Shown here piece after piece: positions 47,468-54,492 of a DNA stretch of 64,000 nucleotides (position 1 is its first letter; every line of letters begins with the position of its first letter). Made by a program: the position numbers and the translations under genes. The DNA comes from Aureliella helgolandensis (GTDB taxonomy: Bacteria; Planctomycetota; Planctomycetia; Pirellulales; Pirellulaceae), in NCBI RefSeq assembly GCF_007752135.1, contig NZ_CP036298.1, forward strand, positions 1,798,001-1,862,000. Direction: 5' to 3'. The notes below the pieces were generated by a model. It searched no databases, had not been told where the DNA came from, and was given only the letters and a program-made list of their open reading frames with translations.

Positions 47468-49663
47468 TTAACGGCGAGTGATTCGGCTCAGATTGATCGC
47501 GCACGCCGACAATGCGACGACGCAAGTTAGCCCCAAGGCGATCAGGCCAGCGATCTTAAAAAATGCTCGGCCTTGAAAGAGTTGATTCCAAGCAGTCAGT
47601 CTGTCTGTATCGACTTCTTGCAGGGTGTGCGTCTTGAGCGGCTTAGTGGACTGCCCCGGCAGTAGTCCCACGGGCAAGACTTCAGCTCCGAAGAAAAGAG
47701 AGTTGTCACTATGGCATTCTAAACAGCCGGTCGCACCGAGGGCTTGGCGTGCAGGCCGCACTGCATGGGCCATCGGCCAGGCGTAGGGCTCGGCGGCGTC
47801 GCCCAGTGATTCCGGCTCCACCGCTTTGATCGTAGACGCTCCATCGCGGACGAAACCGCTGCCCCCGGAAATAAAGATCGCTACTGAATCGGGGTACGCC
47901 TCTTCGATCGCCTGCAACGCATCCGACACTCGCTCCGACACTTGCAACTCGCGGGCGGTGCGTTCCGCGGTTGCAATTTTCTGCCGCTCTTCAGTGGTCC
48001 ATTCCTCTTCTTTGGCTCGCGCGCGATCCTCGCCCAGCAGCTCCTTGCGCTGGCTCAGTGAGAGCTTAACGTCCGCGAGTTCTTCGGTGAATTCACGCCG
48101 AACTTTAAGTGGTCTGCGAATGAGCTCGTACACCTCTTCAGGATTGAGTGGGACGATTTTCTCATTCCGCTTGACTCCCCAGTAGGACGGCCACATCATT
48201 CGATGAGGTGTGTACTTTCCAACCTCCACCTGCTTGACGGTCCCCTCGTCTGGAGAGGCCACTGCGACGGGCTCTCCGGCTGCTTCTTCTGCTCCCGAGG
48301 CTGTTTCGTCTGCCTCACTAGGCGCTTCGTTAGTAGCGGCCGGGGGGGCGGATGATTGCCGCAAACCGCTGGCTGGCAAATGGACCGGGCCGACAATTCC
48401 AGGCTGCTCAAGGCCCGTCCGCTTGACGTGCTGCCCTAAGTGGTGGGCGATGGAATTGAGCTGTCGTCCAACGCTTGGTTCCAGCAATCCACCCGAGTGG
48501 CATGCGGTGCAAGTCAGTTTGTCGAAGTGTAGCGGAGGCAAACCCGCGTGGGCGGGTTGGGGGGCTCCCATGCGCCCTGCTCGCGATAATCCATCCGCGC
48601 TATCGTTAGGCATATGACAGCCCTGGCAGGATAGCGAGGTGGCGACGCTTCCTGACGGATGCTGCTCCCCCTCGAATCCACGGACCGTATTGTGATCTAA
48701 ACCGTTGCGGTGGCAATCCGCGCATGACATGCCTGCCCGCAAGTGCACATCTTCATCATGCTGCCAACGCGTTCCCTGAGTGGTCTCTGCGGGAACGTTG
48801 GTGTGGCAATAGTAACACGCGTTATTCTCAGGTTTGCGAATCAAATCGATGAAGACTTTGCCATCGCTACGAAAGCGACTGGCCTCGTACGTCACCTTGG
48901 GTAATTTGCTCGCCGCACCTTCGGCAGTGGGATCGAAGTCGTCCTTTAAGCGTTTCATGGAGCCAGCTACGGTGCCAACACCGAGGGCGGCTGTCGGCGC
49001 ATAGGCAAAATTCTCGTCTTCAATCTGCTCCGACCACACAAATGGGCTATACCCGTTTCCCTGCTTACGATGGCACAGCATGCAATCAACGGGGAGCGCC
49101 CCAGTCACTCCGCTGCGATCGAGGTATCCCTCGGGCCGTTCCTCACCCTGCAGGGCTTCACCGGCAGCAATGGACTCTTCCGAGCCTGGGCCTCCCCCGG
49201 GCAGAAAGCTGCCGAACTTGGCAGCCACTTGCCAACGTGATAGCCCCAAAGCGTCTGGATTGTAGGTTCCCATCCAATCGCGGTAGGAAAGTGGTAGATG
49301 AGTCCCGGTACGATCGTCCGACCAAATCCAGGGCTGACCGCCACGGCCCGGATCGGCCGCCTCGTTCACGGCATTGAAATGCCAGCCGTGCGCAATCGTA
49401 TCGAATTCATGGCATCTCCCGCAAGTTTTCTCGGGAGAATAGGGCGGTGGATTTTCGGAAGCTGGATCGATCTTAGTATTGGATGCATCAAACAGCTCAA
49501 TCCAGTGCACATAGCCACTCATGTTATCGGAAGTGGCGTAACGTGATTGCGCGACGGCGAGGGAGGGAGCCCCCAGGAAGCTGCACCAGCACACCCAGCT
49601 CAACAGCAGGGAGAGCAGGCGGCGCGCGTTACGGCTAGTCAGGTGACGAGATCGATCGGACAT
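47468..49663 (-). CDS. Seven-haem membrane-anchored cytochrome c
   Basis: A 731-residue protein from the ATG at 49663 (an in-frame start at 49756 is possible). A signal peptide is followed by seven CxxCH sites: CGRCH, CMLCH, CYYCH, CADCH, CQGCH, CTACH and CLECH. After these, a hydrophobic segment (FFKIAGLIALGLTCVVALSA) and a basic tail anchor it to the membrane from the periplasmic side. An intervening Glu/Ala-rich segment lies between haems six and seven. It is a multihaem electron carrier or reductase of unknown substrate, in a likely two-gene unit with the downstream b-type protein. Confidence 0.88.
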   Translation of the reverse strand: MSDRSRHLTSRNARRLLSLLLSWVCWCSFLGAPSLAVAQSRYATSDNMSGYVHWIELFDASNTKIDPASENPPPYSPEKTCGRCHEFDTIAHGWHFNAVNEAADPGRGGQPWIWSDDRTGTHLPLSYRDWMGTYNPDALGLSRWQVAAKFGSFLPGGGPGSEESIAAGEALQGEERPEGYLDRSGVTGALPVDCMLCHRKQGNGYSPFVWSEQIEDENFAYAPTAALGVGTVAGSMKRLKDDFDPTAEGAASKLPKVTYEASRFRSDGKVFIDLIRKPENNACYYCHTNVPAETTQGTRWQHDEDVHLRAGMSCADCHRNGLDHNTVRGFEGEQHPSGSVATSLSCQGCHMPNDSADGLSRAGRMGAPQPAHAGLPPLHFDKLTCTACHSGGLLEPSVGRQLNSIAHHLGQHVKRTGLEQPGIVGPVHLPASGLRQSSAPPAATNEAPSEADETASGAEEAAGEPVAVASPDEGTVKQVEVGKYTPHRMMWPSYWGVKRNEKIVPLNPEEVYELIRRPLKVRREFTEELADVKLSLSQRKELLGEDRARAKEEEWTTEERQKIATAERTARELQVSERVSDALQAIEEAYPDSVAIFISGGSGFVRDGASTIKAVEPESLGDAAEPYAWPMAHAVRPARQALGATGCLECHSDNSLFFGAEVLPVGLLPGQSTKPLKTHTLQEVDTDRLTAWNQLFQGRAFFKIAGLIALGLTCVVALSACAINLSRITRR

Positions 49664-49868
49664 GGCGAATGGCATCTGGAATAGGTACTGGGAGGGCGAA
49701 TGGTAGAACGCACGCACCTGAGTGAAAAAAGCGGGTGTATTATGAAGAATTTTCACGTAGAAACCAAGGTGGAGCAGCTCGTGAGCTGGGCTCCTTCTCC
49801 GTTCCTCCAGACTAGGCGAGTTTGTCAGCCATTTCGCTAGAAATCCTCAAAGGCAGCGCCGCAGCGGT

Positions 49869-51095
49869 TCACTCGCACGCCTCGGCTCGGAGGGCCCTCT
49901 CGCAGCATTTCAGGGCAGCAGAGGGAGTCTGTGCACGAACTTGGAGCCTGGCAGCTTCCAGAGATCCAATGATCGCCGGGTGCATGGGCACCGCTTCACC
50001 AACGCGTGGCGAAACGGGGATTAAGCTTTGAGAAATTGCGTCCAGCAGCCCTCCAATACCAGGTTCGCCCAAACAACTGGTCGGAATGACCGGGATTGCC
50101 CGTTCCTCCGGAGTGCGGGCGTCGGCTGACCAGTCGGCGAGCGTTGCGAGCGAGGCCGGGGCGCGCTGCAGGTCCGAGGACTCGCGCTCGGTGGATTGCA
50201 AATCTGACTTATTCCAAGCCACCAGTCGCCGAGGGGGAGCGAGCGCGAGAAAGCTTGCATGCGCGGCAGTCCAGCCGACCTGGGAATCGACTACGAACAC
50301 CACGCAATCACTTTCCCGCACGCGTTGCGCGGCGCGGCTAATTCCCTGCTGCTCGATATCGTCCGCCGAATCGCGTATCCCAGCGGTATCGGTGATCGAC
50401 ACGGGCCAGCCGTCGAGGGCCACTTGGACTTCAACCCAGTCCCGCGTTGTGCCGGGGGTGTCGTGCACAATGACTCGCTGCGCGCCAACTATCGCATTGG
50501 TCAAGCTGCTTTTGCCGGTGTTGGGAGGCCCCGCTAAGACGATTCGCCAGGGTTGGTTCAAATGCAAGCCGAGTTCGTTCCAGGTCAGCATTTCCTCGAG
50601 TGCCTGCTCTGCCTCCGGCAGGTTTTCTTGCTGAAGCAGTCGGCTCGTTCGGCGAATGGAATTCGCCAATGCACCCTGCATTTGATCGAGTAGGATCCCT
50701 GCGACCTTATCGGTCGAAGCGTTCAGTAGCTGGCGTTCGGCTTCTAAGGCCAGGGGGCACGCTTGTGAGGTCCAGCCTCGGGCCTCTGCCAGTGGGCACC
50801 CCAGTCTTGCGAAGTCGCCAATCAAAGCTTGGCAAATTGCTTGGCCGCCATGGCAGTGCAATTCCACTGTCTGCGGACCTGTGCGGCAGACCACGACTTG
50901 CTCTGCAGCGGAGTGTTCTGCGGTACTCGCGTGCCACAAGCCGTAGTAGACCTTGTCGATCTCCAGTGTTTGAGTTCGCAATTCCAGTCGCTGCAACACT
51001 CGCTGGACGGCTTCCGGGCCACTGACGGCTAGCGTCGCAATCGCAGATGGTAGCTCTGCTGTGAGCCGGTAGAGTTGGGTTGCAGGGATGGGCAT
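49869..51095 (-). CDS. mnmE: Divergent MnmE-like GTPase
   Basis: A 408-residue protein with MnmE architecture: an N-terminal TrmE-like domain (IATLAVSGPEAV, VELHCHGGQAI), a helical domain, and an inserted G domain (GPPNTGKSSLTNAI, DTPGTTRD, DTAGIRD, NKSD). MnmE, with MnmG, modifies tRNA wobble uridine. Here the usual N-terminal DTIAA-type start and the RAFLNGK-type motif are missing, and the protein ends ERALRAEACE without the CxGK catalytic cysteine motif. It is shorter than the usual 450 residues or more. It is either a divergent functional MnmE or a paralogue that has lost the tRNA-modifying part. The start at 51095 lacks a Shine-Dalgarno. Confidence 0.83.
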   Translation of the reverse strand: MPIPATQLYRLTAELPSAIATLAVSGPEAVQRVLQRLELRTQTLEIDKVYYGLWHASTAEHSAAEQVVVCRTGPQTVELHCHGGQAICQALIGDFARLGCPLAEARGWTSQACPLALEAERQLLNASTDKVAGILLDQMQGALANSIRRTSRLLQQENLPEAEQALEEMLTWNELGLHLNQPWRIVLAGPPNTGKSSLTNAIVGAQRVIVHDTPGTTRDWVEVQVALDGWPVSITDTAGIRDSADDIEQQGISRAAQRVRESDCVVFVVDSQVGWTAAHASFLALAPPRRLVAWNKSDLQSTERESSDLQRAPASLATLADWSADARTPEERAIPVIPTSCLGEPGIGGLLDAISQSLIPVSPRVGEAVPMHPAIIGSLEAARLQVRAQTPSAALKCCERALRAEACE

Positions 51096-51261: not shown

Positions 51262-53703
51262 TTACCGGAGTGGTTCCTTCACGGGGATGCTCCCTCGGTA
51301 AGGGCCGAAGAACTCACGCGCGGCGGGATGCCATGCAATGCCTTGCCAGTGCGCGGCATGGTTTGCTGAAAAGATCCCCGTCTGAGCCACGACTTCCGGC
51401 GTAAACAGGCTCCTTAGTACCGCTTGAACCAGCGCTGCAGGTGCGTCGTCCCGTGCCGCTAGGTAGGCCGGTGTGGCGACGGTCGCAACTCCGTCTGCCG
51501 AAATCTGTCGGTCGGGGTAGTGTTCTGCGCTGACGATGTACGGGCGAAAGCTCGGCTCATCCAAGGCAAACTGCCAAGCGTTCGAAATGGGCAGGAATCG
51601 AAATCCACTATTGAGGAAATATTTGATCTCCGACCCTCCAACGCGTGACACGACGATCGCTGCGTCGCACTGCAATTGCTCCTGGGGCAGTTCGCTTGCG
51701 AGGTGTTGCCACTGCGATTCGTCCAGTTCAACGTCTGCAAGGTTCACGCCGGCATGCTGCAGCAGCAGCTTGGCTACGCTCTGTGAACCGGCCATTTGAT
51801 CACCCACTGCAATTCGGTGATGCCCGAATTCCGATAGCTTGGTTAAGTCTGAATCGGCACGCACTAGAACATGTACCACTTCGAAATAGAGTGGGGCTAC
51901 GACAGCGATAGCACCTGAGTCCACGGCGTCCGCTTGCAGGATTGCCAAATCCACTTCGCCTCGCTCCAGCTTGCCAAGATTGTCCGACGAGCCTGCGGAG
52001 GGCACGATTCTCGTTTGGGTCTTGGTGGAATTCACCAACATGTCACTAATCACAGTCGCCAGTTGCTCGTAGCTCCCGCCTGCAGCCCCAGAGGCTACTG
52101 CCACCTTGCTCGGAATGCGATTTTTGAACCAAACACTGGAGGGGATTACCCACAGCATCGAAGCTGCCAGCATGAGCATTGCGACTGAAATTAAACCGCG
52201 TTGAACCCAGCGGTGAGCGTCCGTGGGTTCTACCACGCGGTTGTCCAATATTGCGCCGACGATAGGCACTCCCAGCAGCCAGTACCACGCGCGACGGACG
52301 CGCGAAAGCGGGCGGGCGTGAATCGGCAATCCCTGCAAATAGCGGTCGAGGTCATCGGCCAAAGCCGCTGCGCTTCGGTAGCGGCGTTCCGGAGACTTTT
52401 GCAGGCAAACATCGATGATCGTGGCAATCTCATCATCCACGCCGTCTGCCACGTTGCTAGCCTTCGGGGCCGGACGGTGGATGACTTGGAACATCGTCTG
52501 CATGACGTTCGCCGCCTTGAAAGGGGGGCTGCCAGTCACGATCGTGTACAGCACCGCTCCCAACGAGTAGATGTCTGTCGCGTGGTTCTGTTCGTCTTGG
52601 TTGCCCGCGGCTTGTTCGGGCGACATGTAGCTCGGCGTCCCAAGTGTGGCTCCGGTAGCAGTTAGCCCAGCTTCGTTGTCAATCGTTTTCGCCAAACCGA
52701 AGTCGGTGATCCGTACTGCATCGTTTTCGTCGACCAGCACATTGGCAGGTTTCAAGTCACGGTGGACCACGCCACGGTCGTGGGCGTATTGGATGGCGCG
52801 AGCGGCGTCACGGACGTACCGTGCAGCTCGCTTGCAATCGATCCTGCCCTCGTTCAGCATTTTCGATAAGTCGGAGCCGGCAACGTAGTCCATCGAGAAG
52901 TAGCGATGGCCCTCATGCTCACCGCATTGATGAACCGTGACGATGCAGGGATGGTCCAACCGGGCGGCGCTGCGCGCTTCTGCGTAGAATCTGAGGACTT
53001 CCTCTTGGCTGGCAAGCGCCCCAGAGCGAATTGTCTTGATAGCAACCGGACGATCGAGGCGCGTTTGCCTCCCGAAGTAGACGACCCCCATTCCGCCGCA
53101 TCCCAGAACTCGCTCCAAGACATAATCCCCAAACTGACAGGGAAGCTTGGGCTGCGCGAGCTCGATCTGCAGTGGCCCAGTTGCTGCGGGACGCGGTGGA
53201 TTCTGAGTATCAAACAGTAGTGGTTGAGGGCGGGCGCCGCCTGTCGCTGGTTGATCGTTTACGGAAAAATCGGCCGACTTCCCCTTCCCTGGCAACGTCT
53301 GCCGCTCCGCGTCACGATGGTGATCCGACTCGGCCGGAAGGGATGGGATTCCGGCAGCCCAGAAATTGTGGAGTGGCAGCGTCTCTTCCTGCTCTGCTGA
53401 CGCCTGGGTTACCTCTGGGGCCTGCTTCGCGTTGCCTGGCCCATGATCGCTGGCAGGCACTTCCCGAGTGGGAGGCTGCTCAAGAAAAGTCGGCCCAGCC
53501 AAGCGTTCGATCCAGTCGGCGGCCTCTAGTAACTCAGCCAACTGGCTGCGTAGAGTTGGATGGAGCGCAAGAAACGACTCGCGGTCTGTCAACTCGCCCG
53601 CATCGCTCTTCTGCATGTACTCAGCCAAGGCACGCTCGACCTCCATTTCATCTAGCGGATCGTCGGGCTCGATAGGGCTGGAGTGTGGCAATGGAGAATC
53701 CAA
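51262..53703 (-). CDS. Ser/Thr protein kinase fused to a TAXI-type receptor domain
   Basis: An 813-residue protein beginning with TTG. An N-terminal region of about 180 residues of low complexity leads into a Hanks-type kinase domain (about 190-470): GCGGMGVVYFG, catalytic-lysine K223 (VAIKTIR), HRDLKPAN with D316, and DFGLAK. A single membrane helix lies at about 503-525 (LISVAMLMLAASMLWVIPSS). The extracytoplasmic part (about 535-800) matches the TAXI-type solute receptor of TRAP transporters: VAVASGAAGGSYEQLA, DLAILQADAVDSG, and HHRIAVGDQMAGSQS. It is therefore a membrane receptor kinase with a predicted small-molecule binding domain. No TRAP permease is adjacent. Confidence 0.9.
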   Translation of the reverse strand: MDSPLPHSSPIEPDDPLDEMEVERALAEYMQKSDAGELTDRESFLALHPTLRSQLAELLEAADWIERLAGPTFLEQPPTREVPASDHGPGNAKQAPEVTQASAEQEETLPLHNFWAAGIPSLPAESDHHRDAERQTLPGKGKSADFSVNDQPATGGARPQPLLFDTQNPPRPAATGPLQIELAQPKLPCQFGDYVLERVLGCGGMGVVYFGRQTRLDRPVAIKTIRSGALASQEEVLRFYAEARSAARLDHPCIVTVHQCGEHEGHRYFSMDYVAGSDLSKMLNEGRIDCKRAARYVRDAARAIQYAHDRGVVHRDLKPANVLVDENDAVRITDFGLAKTIDNEAGLTATGATLGTPSYMSPEQAAGNQDEQNHATDIYSLGAVLYTIVTGSPPFKAANVMQTMFQVIHRPAPKASNVADGVDDEIATIIDVCLQKSPERRYRSAAALADDLDRYLQGLPIHARPLSRVRRAWYWLLGVPIVGAILDNRVVEPTDAHRWVQRGLISVAMLMLAASMLWVIPSSVWFKNRIPSKVAVASGAAGGSYEQLATVISDMLVNSTKTQTRIVPSAGSSDNLGKLERGEVDLAILQADAVDSGAIAVVAPLYFEVVHVLVRADSDLTKLSEFGHHRIAVGDQMAGSQSVAKLLLQHAGVNLADVELDESQWQHLASELPQEQLQCDAAIVVSRVGGSEIKYFLNSGFRFLPISNAWQFALDEPSFRPYIVSAEHYPDRQISADGVATVATPAYLAARDDAPAALVQAVLRSLFTPEVVAQTGIFSANHAAHWQGIAWHPAAREFFGPYRGSIPVKEPLR

Positions 53704-53937
53704 GCTGGCGGCGACCTGTCGTTGGAGTCAGCCCTCGGCGTACCGCGGGAAGTTGTGGAAATTGACGGAGCATCTGGGCGGGAGAACTGGCAAGTTGACC
53801 TGGCCGTTGGTCAACCCAGTTAGGCCCCACGCAAGACCTTGTGCCAGCACTATCACCCAGTCACCAATTCTATCACATTCGCGGTCAAGTACGGAATCTT
53901 GGACAGATTTCCAACGAGAGCAGCCCCCGCGTCCATT

Positions 53938-54061
53938 AGGTGCCACCCACCTATCCCCGATCGTCCACCTACCTCCCATTGCTAGCCTTCGTCCCGATAG
54001 GTGCCACCCATCTATCCCCAATTGCTAGCTTTGCAATTTCAGGGAAAGATGGGTGGCACCT
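53938..54061. repeat. Direct and inverted repeat element
   Basis: AGGTGCCACCCACCTATCCC at 53938 recurs with two changes at 53999. The second copy is inverted perfectly for 15 bases (AGGTGCCACCCATCT with AGATGGGTGGCACCT, 53999-54013 and 54047-54061), with an inner AATTGC/GCAATT pairing, so it can fold into a long hairpin followed by T residues. It resembles a REP- or MITE-like palindrome. Confidence 0.7.
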
Positions 54062-54142
54062 TTTAGATATTTTTGTGGGGGGGGAGTTGTTGTGTGTGGG
54101 GGGGGGGGGCGTGGTCCGCGTGTGCCTTGATGCCAAGGCACG

Positions 54143-54336: not shown

Positions 54337-54492
54337 CTAGCGTTTTTTCTTGCGAACCTTGGCACCGCCCTGGCGGACCTTGAAGCGAGGATTGCTTTTG
54401 CAAATTACGTAGATACGACCACGACGCCGCACAACCTGGCAATCAGGGTGACGAAATTTAAGAGCGCCGATCGAGGAAACAACTTTCATGGC
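54337..54492 (-). CDS. rpmJ: 50S ribosomal protein L36
   Basis: A 51-residue protein, [18 protein letters not shown] and onward, with the L36 core [20 protein letters not shown] and a lysine/arginine-rich end (KKKR). Only two cysteines remain (PDC and VIC) and the usual fourth zinc ligand is replaced, so this is the zinc-independent form of L36, like E. coli YkgO. It is small enough to be missed by length cut-offs. It stands alone with its own terminator, divergent from the helicase gene. Confidence 0.93.

Follow-up and report, generated by a model that had tools for sequence, protein, structure and literature searches.

A predicted receptor kinase with a TAXI solute-binding domain in Aureliella helgolandensis and other Pirellulaceae

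What might a Ser/Thr kinase do with a domain that is otherwise known from transporters? The question is raised by a gene of Aureliella helgolandensis (Pirellulaceae) at 51262-53703 of the window, that is, of the whole stretch of 64,000 nucleotides that was analysed (contig NZ_CP036298.1, positions 1,798,001 to 1,862,000). These positions are exactly one open reading frame of 813 amino acids on the minus strand, a strand that the sequence-only reading of this DNA had not given, and the frame together with its Pfam and NCBIfam matches defines a kinase, one membrane helix and a TAXI domain in a single chain. The frame begins with TTG, and many homologues begin near the same place; the start codon is not proven. 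The architecture and the fold of the fusion are near certain. On the whole we favour, with some reserve, the view that the product is a one-chain Ser/Thr receptor kinase that senses glutamate, or an amino acid like it, outside the cell; in this view ligand, topology, signal transfer, activity and targets are predictions.

The kinase half agrees with the sequence-only reading, which had described a complete Hanks-type kinase with K223 and D316. Pfam Pkinase (PF00069) matched residues 194-449 (52357-53124; this and all further features of the gene are on the minus strand) with E=1.6e-52, and the domain carries K223, E242, D316, N321 and D334. G201 (P-loop Gly), K223 (VAIK Lys), E242 (Glu), D316 (HRD Asp), N321 (Asn) and D334 (DFG Asp) are kept in all of the 60 fusions that are described below, as are all 8 kinase positions examined. 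The nearest PDB neighbour of the kinase domain is PknB (1mru, E=2.1e-55). The equivalog profile for PASTA kinases, NF033483, reached 282 bits against a cut-off of 450 with a match restricted to the kinase part, and no PASTA repeats were found among the Pfam matches of the fusion protein. Judged by its sequence, the fusion protein is a Hanks-type Ser/Thr kinase with predicted catalytic activity.

Profile searches also upheld the earlier assignment of the C-terminal part to the TAXI type, since both TAXI profiles passed their cut-offs: Pfam NMT1_3 on residues 537-767 (69.2 bits, cut-off 27) and NCBIfam TIGR02122 TRAP_TAXI on residues 510-799 (90.4 bits, cut-off 84.35, a narrow margin). From profiles and fold match the domain was placed at residues 533-802 (51298-52107), and it is predicted to be extracytoplasmic. 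Both profiles match 35/35 members of alignment A2 at E<=0.001. Of the first 41 fusions, A1 contains 36 and A2 contains 35: L066, L070, L071, L075 and L097 are omitted from both as near-copies, and A2 also lacks L068, which has a short N-terminus. The possibility that the C-terminal half folds as something other than TAXI was checked by structure prediction, and a confident TAXI fold was obtained instead: modelled by itself (289 residues, 36-row alignment), the TAXI part had a mean AlphaFold predicted local distance difference test score (pLDDT) of 93.4. Its top six PDB matches are all TAXI structures (Z 24.3-28.6), namely 9ibo (VcGluP; Z 28.6, root-mean-square deviation 2.5, 270 aligned residues), 4ddd and 8s4j (both Z 28.5, the latter VcGluP), 8u79 and 1us4 (both Z 28.3, the latter TtGluBP) and 9ibp (Z 24.3), and the top seven Foldseek rows are the same TAXI entries. 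The first non-TAXI structure, taurine-binding TauA (6ssy), followed at Z 15.5. According to their PDB titles, 9ibo and 1us4 are glutamate-bound. The family profile searched against PDB sequences gave 7 at E<=0.01, all of them apparently TAXI by name and fold match. In these models, the C-terminal half is a two-lobed TAXI solute-binding domain.

The sequence-only reading had proposed to look for the same fusion in other planctomycetes, and the fusion was indeed found there. With the TAXI part as query, matches were obtained in 82 of 149 Pirellulaceae genomes, own genome included. Of the 59 fusion candidates opened in the family (a first 40, then L122-L139 and L141), L141 is truncated at the end of its contig, and the other 58 all have the kinase-helix-TAXI build. 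They lie in 57 other Pirellulaceae genomes, which is a lower bound because the remaining rows of the scan, mostly weaker or shorter, were left unopened. At 21 more family places (L140, L142-L161) there was no kinase in the TAXI frame. One further fusion was found in a sister family of the same order (L162), so that the total with the window copy is 60. That the fusion occurs at 59 places besides the window rules out a chance join or an assembly artefact. Among 196 genomes scanned across the order, L162 was the sole frame of more than 650 residues outside the family; four places were opened there (L162, a fusion; L166-L168, not fusions), and frames of up to 620 amino acids stayed unopened. The phylum scan covered 392 genomes with a match in at least 194, and 30 loci (L002-L031), 20 places and 3 places were looked at; in none of those outside the family does the TAXI frame include a kinase, as judged by the kinase motif and, for 20 loci, by the kinase profile too. 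A contig scan with alignment A3 (eleven closer sequences) gave 25 loci of the same TAXI type, a count that refers to the TAXI part. By TAXI-part match the same type occurs in Rhodopirellula baltica, R. europaea, R. maiorica, Stieleria, Rubripirellula, Roseiconus and Neorhodopirellula.

The spread of the fusion is patchy. It is present in 58/149 sampled family genomes, the window's own counted; in G413, G468 and G520, three genomes from the window's genus that were sampled, the TAXI part had no match. A tree of 104 TAXI domains was built by a quick method with the Shimodaira-Hasegawa-like approximate likelihood ratio test (SH-aLRT) as sole support, without the five near-copies, L133 and L141. 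In it, 54 fusion rows form one group (SH-aLRT 92) that takes in a single long-branch non-fusion row, and next to it stands a set of membrane TAXI proteins of about 450 residues without a kinase (joint group, SH-aLRT 99). Because the TAXI parts of the fusions form one tree group, a single fusion event is likely.

To consider the ligand, the pocket was compared with that of V. cholerae VcGluP, in which glutamate is contacted by the side chains of Y45, S75, Q93 and E125 and by the main chain of G156, M201 and V44, with other contacts via water, and in which the affinity for glutamate is lowered 213-fold by Y45A and 990-fold by Q93A (PMC11574862). In the profile alignment, VcGluP Y45, S75, Q93, E125 and G156 correspond to Tyr545 (52069-52071), Ser572 (51988-51990), Gln590 (51934-51936), Glu608 (51880-51882) and Gly639 (51787-51789), Gln93 being the main affinity determinant and Gly156 a main-chain contact in VcGluP. 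These positions are kept in most of the 60 fusions, and the two main ones, those of Y45 and Q93, almost without exception: the Y545 column has Y 58, F 1 and A 1, the S572 column S 52, T 5 and A 3, the Q590 column Q 59 and V 1, the E608 column E 55 and D 5, and the G639 column G 58, S 1 and V 1. Five of six mapped direct contacts fall within the 32/277 columns that are conserved at 90% or more (hypergeometric p ~8e-5, relatedness ignored). When M201 was added, 5/7 contacts were in conserved columns (p 3e-4), and for all 12 mapped contacts, including the water-mediated ones, it was 5/12 (p 0.007), relatedness being ignored here too. The mean column identity of the TAXI domain in the fusions is 41%, and the five pocket residues are far above it. 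We regard an amino acid as the probable ligand, and glutamate itself is slightly favoured.

Some observations speak against such a specific reading. Around the ligand side chain and in the second lobe, the positions of VcGluP V44, Y46, H123, Y200, M201 and G203 are variable in the fusions, and the window protein has S544, E546, Y606, V684, V685 and R687 there, so that Arg687 stands at VcGluP Gly203; therefore the side-chain preference may differ and other amino acids are possible. Moreover, non-kinase Planctomycetota TAXI domains (75 rows, with some loci present twice: L014/L102, L018/L104, L019/L105, L025/L110, L027/L107, L030/L114) have Y in 47/54 and Q in 50/59 rows with a letter at the position, although among 14 short TAXI proteins of transporter-subunit size (322-406 residues) Q is found in 7/13 with a letter there. 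The Y/Q pair alone as a distinctive mark of the fusions was rejected, because it is frequent in other Planctomycetota TAXI domains.

The alternative that survives best keeps the same receptor-kinase logic and replaces the ligand by a different amino acid or by a small organic acid, possibly not the same one in all members. We think it rather unlikely, though it draws on the variation around the ligand side chain, on TAXI systems for 2-oxoglutarate and ortho-phthalate cited in PMC12344293, and on one genome (G415) in which a long-branch fusion paralogue (L130:2346-4421, plus strand) has lost 4/5 pocket residues, keeping E608, while the second copy in this genome, L085, keeps all five. On the other hand, the contacts to the amino group and the alpha-carboxylate are nearly fixed, and the Q93-equivalent is present in 59/60 fusions versus 54% of the TAXI alignment of PMC11574862. 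A further alternative, which we consider quite improbable, is that the TAXI domain has lost ligand binding and serves as a module for protein docking or dimerisation, which relays a partner protein or envelope stress. Solute-binding-like domains do act via protein contacts (PMC9602780), and L130 is a fusion able to lose most of the pocket, but the conservation of the five pocket residues far above the domain average argues against a pocket that is out of use.

The receptor-kinase view also depends on the topology. The sequence-only reading had placed one membrane helix near residues 503-525, and this was confirmed: the most hydrophobic 19-residue segment is 503-521 (52141-52197), within a 34-residue helix predicted by AlphaFold at 495-528. 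All 60 fusions have one hydrophobic segment between kinase and TAXI domain (peak 1.69-2.84), and none of the 60 has a hydrophobic segment before the kinase at a threshold of 1.6. Lysine plus arginine counts on the flanks of the helix are richer on the kinase side in 40/60 fusions, tied in 13 and poorer in 7. Thus, of the earlier claim that the TAXI domain is extracytoplasmic, the single segment in 60/60 and the mostly kinase-sided charges are in support, while the window's own helix is a tie (3:3) and its topology stays a prediction. Besides this tie, it counts against the simple picture that the hydrophobicity scan flags a stretch within the window TAXI domain too (peak 1.83), with the same stretch flagged in 7/40 relatives; the models show it as a beta strand. 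A receptor topology with the kinase inside, the TAXI domain outside and one crossing is very probable.

Ahead of the helix, residues 474-486 form a short, conserved hydrophobic patch, in which P480 and A484 are invariant in the 35 aligned rows of A2. It overlaps a juxtamembrane segment at residues 468-485 (52249-52302), which from alignment and AlphaFold contains two short modelled helices. If the patch were a first helix, there would be two crossings, and the TAXI domain would be cytoplasmic and sense an internal metabolite. We hold this to be very improbable: the patch is conserved and looks, by eye, like the first part of the membrane helix in another kinase of the genome (L209), but its best 19-residue segment not overlapping the main helix reaches 1.16 in the window and at most 1.6 (L122) versus 1.69-2.84 for the main helix, AlphaFold gives two short helices at the patch and then one long helix, R/K residues come after the patch, and other TAXI proteins are exported (PMC12344293). 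The patch would rather be a cytoplasmic juxtamembrane element, probably too short for a second crossing.

The model of the full chain gave a mean pLDDT of 81.6 and a predicted template modelling score of 0.49, so its relative domain placement is not informative. The order of the parts in it is N-terminal helices, a disordered region at 70-181, the kinase, two short juxtamembrane helices, the 495-528 helix and the TAXI domain. The N-terminal helical segment, defined at residues 16-68 (53500-53658) by alignment and AlphaFold model, is similar in most relatives (consensus LDxAFAAYLRxCDxGExxSRExFLxQFP), and the variable linker after it, residues 70-181 (53161-53496), is probably disordered (pLDDT <50). 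In 60/60 fusions, the TAXI match starts 62-68 residues after the kinase match has ended. Because this spacing is constant while the N-terminal parts vary strongly, mechanical coupling is suggested.

It is extremely improbable that the fusion is a transporter component, handing solute from its TAXI domain to a TRAP or GltS permease, with the kinase as a passenger or uptake regulator. TRAP permeases are the classical partners of TAXI domains, and PMC12344293 describes a TAXI-GltS system that has no TRAP permease, but neither DctM nor Glt_symporter is matched anywhere in the genome; a different, unrecognised permease is conceivable. The search for the DctM TRAP permease (PF06808) gave 0 matches in the 8.44-Mb one-contig genome and was positive in 7/14 control genomes, that for GltS (PF03616, Glt_symporter) gave 0 matches and was positive in 2/14 control genomes, and a second TAXI match was also absent from the genome. 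Moreover, the TAXI part is the C-terminal end of the kinase behind an internal helix. Because it is not a separate exported subunit with a signal peptide or lipid anchor of its own, and because there is no DctM match, it is not a TRAP subunit, and a transporter role in this genome was rejected. The earlier remark that no TRAP permease is nearby extends in this way to the whole genome, and its suggestion that no transporter is needed is strengthened.

We propose that this receptor kinase would work as follows. Outside the cytoplasmic membrane, the two lobes of the TAXI domain would bind and close on an alpha-amino acid, with L-glutamate as the most likely one. Through the one membrane helix and the linker, which hardly varies in length, this closure would change the state of the cytoplasmic kinase, probably by dimer-dependent trans-autophosphorylation. 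That the TAXI domain is coupled to kinase activity appears probable to us. The kinase would then phosphorylate its targets, and a plausible target in many relatives is the extracytoplasmic function (ECF) sigma factor encoded just upstream. The target of the window copy would lie elsewhere in the genome, because no ECF sigma gene adjoins the window gene.

In 29/60 fusion loci, the gene immediately upstream has the same orientation and belongs to one ECF-sigma family, a count that is a lower bound since some flanks are short (e.g. L123, L139); two of these 29 genes were scanned and both exceeded the cut-off of Sig-70_plancto1, an ECF sigma subfamily. The idea of such an output is weakened by the two nearest relatives (L062, L063), which like the window copy have no adjoining ECF sigma gene, and by the own genome, in which 15/68 kinase places have an ECF sigma match within 1.5 kb upstream. 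This amounts to a moderate enrichment at fusion loci (29/60 versus 15/68), which are not independent of each other. The ECF neighbour was rejected as an argument for the window copy, since it is absent here and the pairing is frequent in the genome. When the family kinase profile was compared with 20 other kinase places of the genome, L202 ranked next to the window kinase, and it has a Sig-70_plancto1 gene over cut-off just upstream. Genes resembling sensor histidine kinases and response-regulator-GGDEF-EAL genes are each found nearby in 10/60 loci. Of each kind one example was scanned; nearly all of these genes have the same orientation as the fusion, and their median position is downstream. 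In 18/60 loci (L065-L075 and others), there is a thioredoxin-like gene upstream on the opposite strand; one was scanned and was below Pfam cut-offs.

In the window, all on the minus strand, the kinase gene is directly followed downstream by 49869-51095, encoding an MnmE/TrmE-like GTPase of 408 amino acids that is well under the MnmE cut-off (151.9 versus 252.6 bits), and 47468-49756 encodes a multihaem-cytochrome-c-like protein of 762 amino acids (Cytochrome_C7, 1.6e-8, and a weak octahaem match). Upstream is a small frame at 54337-54489, also on the minus strand, which we take to be ribosomal-protein-L36-like, and between it and the kinase gene 53930-54070 is a stretch with repeated GGTGGCACCT-type motifs.

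Other TAXI proteins of the phylum have different partners. A class (L142-L156, L158-L159, L161, L166-L168 and L109) mostly has about 435-510 residues with an N-terminal membrane anchor, followed by the TAXI domain, in some members a second hydrophobic segment, and then a helical-looking tail without a Pfam match over cut-off in the four scanned. These proteins are the nearest tree relatives of the fusion TAXI domain and are possibly receptors with an uncharacterised output. L103:2349-4448 (minus strand, G084) combines TAXI (105-389) and Neur_chan_memb (592-671, E=6.4e-11) in one frame; prokaryotic channels fused to a PBP-I periplasmic-binding domain are described in PMC549065, in passages that mention no TAXI version. 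L121:3650-5947 (plus strand, G107) has TAXI (70-308), hydrophobic segments and then a Slo-like RCK domain (E=6.5e-10), and its sequence looks like that of a ligand-gated potassium channel or transporter. From the same genome, L106:1043-5212 (plus strand) is a frame of 1390 residues that has its TAXI domain at the C-terminus and also matches Trypsin_2 and, weakly, TPR.

In its widest form our proposal is tentative: that Pirellulaceae have a widespread one-chain kinase receptor with one fusion origin, which responds to glutamate or a related amino acid outside the cell, and that TAXI is, beyond transport, a general sensory module in Planctomycetota, being found in kinases, channel-like proteins and the anchored class with an uncharacterised tail. 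The PASTA kinases PknB and StkP also consist of a cytoplasmic kinase, one helix and an outer sensor. The kinase domain of the fusion is closest to PknB, whereas its outer part is TAXI and not PASTA. With VcGluP (8s4j/9ibo) and TtGluBP (1us4/1us5), the fusion shares the fold (Z ~28), the profile match and the Y, S, Q, E and G contacts. In contrast to them, separate exported transporter subunits, its TAXI domain is on a kinase, there is no DctM match in the genome, and the residues near the ligand's side chain differ. The TAXI-GltS of Bordetella pertussis (PMC12344293) shows that TAXI can do without a TRAP permease, that TAXI gene fusions exist and that glutamate can be the ligand; it is a transporter and not a kinase, however, and the genome of the fusion has no GltS match. 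The word kinase is absent from the main text of that paper.

With regard to the output, Ser/Thr kinases regulating ECF factors are described for other pairs (PMC8103513), and with pairs of the EcfP-PknT type the fusion shares, in 29/60 loci, a kinase gene directly behind an ECF sigma-like gene. The fusion differs from this type by its sensor domain and, in the window copy, by the lack of a neighbouring sigma gene; sigma phosphorylation is putative. In a survey of Planctomycetota Ser/Thr kinases, most are membrane-spanning, mainly single-pass, and 105 accessory domain groups are reported; TAXI, NMT1, solute-binding and substrate-binding are absent from its main text, whereas its supplementary domain tables may list NMT1_3 (PMC11032199). 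We found no description of a TAXI-kinase fusion in open-licence papers, a scope that excludes supplementary tables and closed papers and does not establish absence from print. Solute-binding-type domains within signalling receptors are a known theme (PMC9602780), and therefore the fusion is a variant of a known theme.

Finally, the GlnH-GlnX-PknG system of Actinobacteria is similar in layout, as an extracytoplasmic protein that binds Asp, Glu or Asn controls a Ser/Thr kinase there too (PMC6069109). It consists of three proteins, including a TPR kinase and the separate membrane protein GlnX, while the fusion is one polypeptide with a TAXI domain; the likeness is one of layout. By this analogy, the fusion would work most like GlnH-GlnX-PknG compressed into one chain. 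If this is true, TAXI domains act as receptors and not only as transporter parts. The stimuli that activate bacterial Ser/Thr kinases are an outstanding question according to PMC6069109, and with sensor and kinase in one chain, a well-studied sensor fold and a pocket that resembles those of glutamate-binding proteins, the stimulus of such a kinase should be directly testable.

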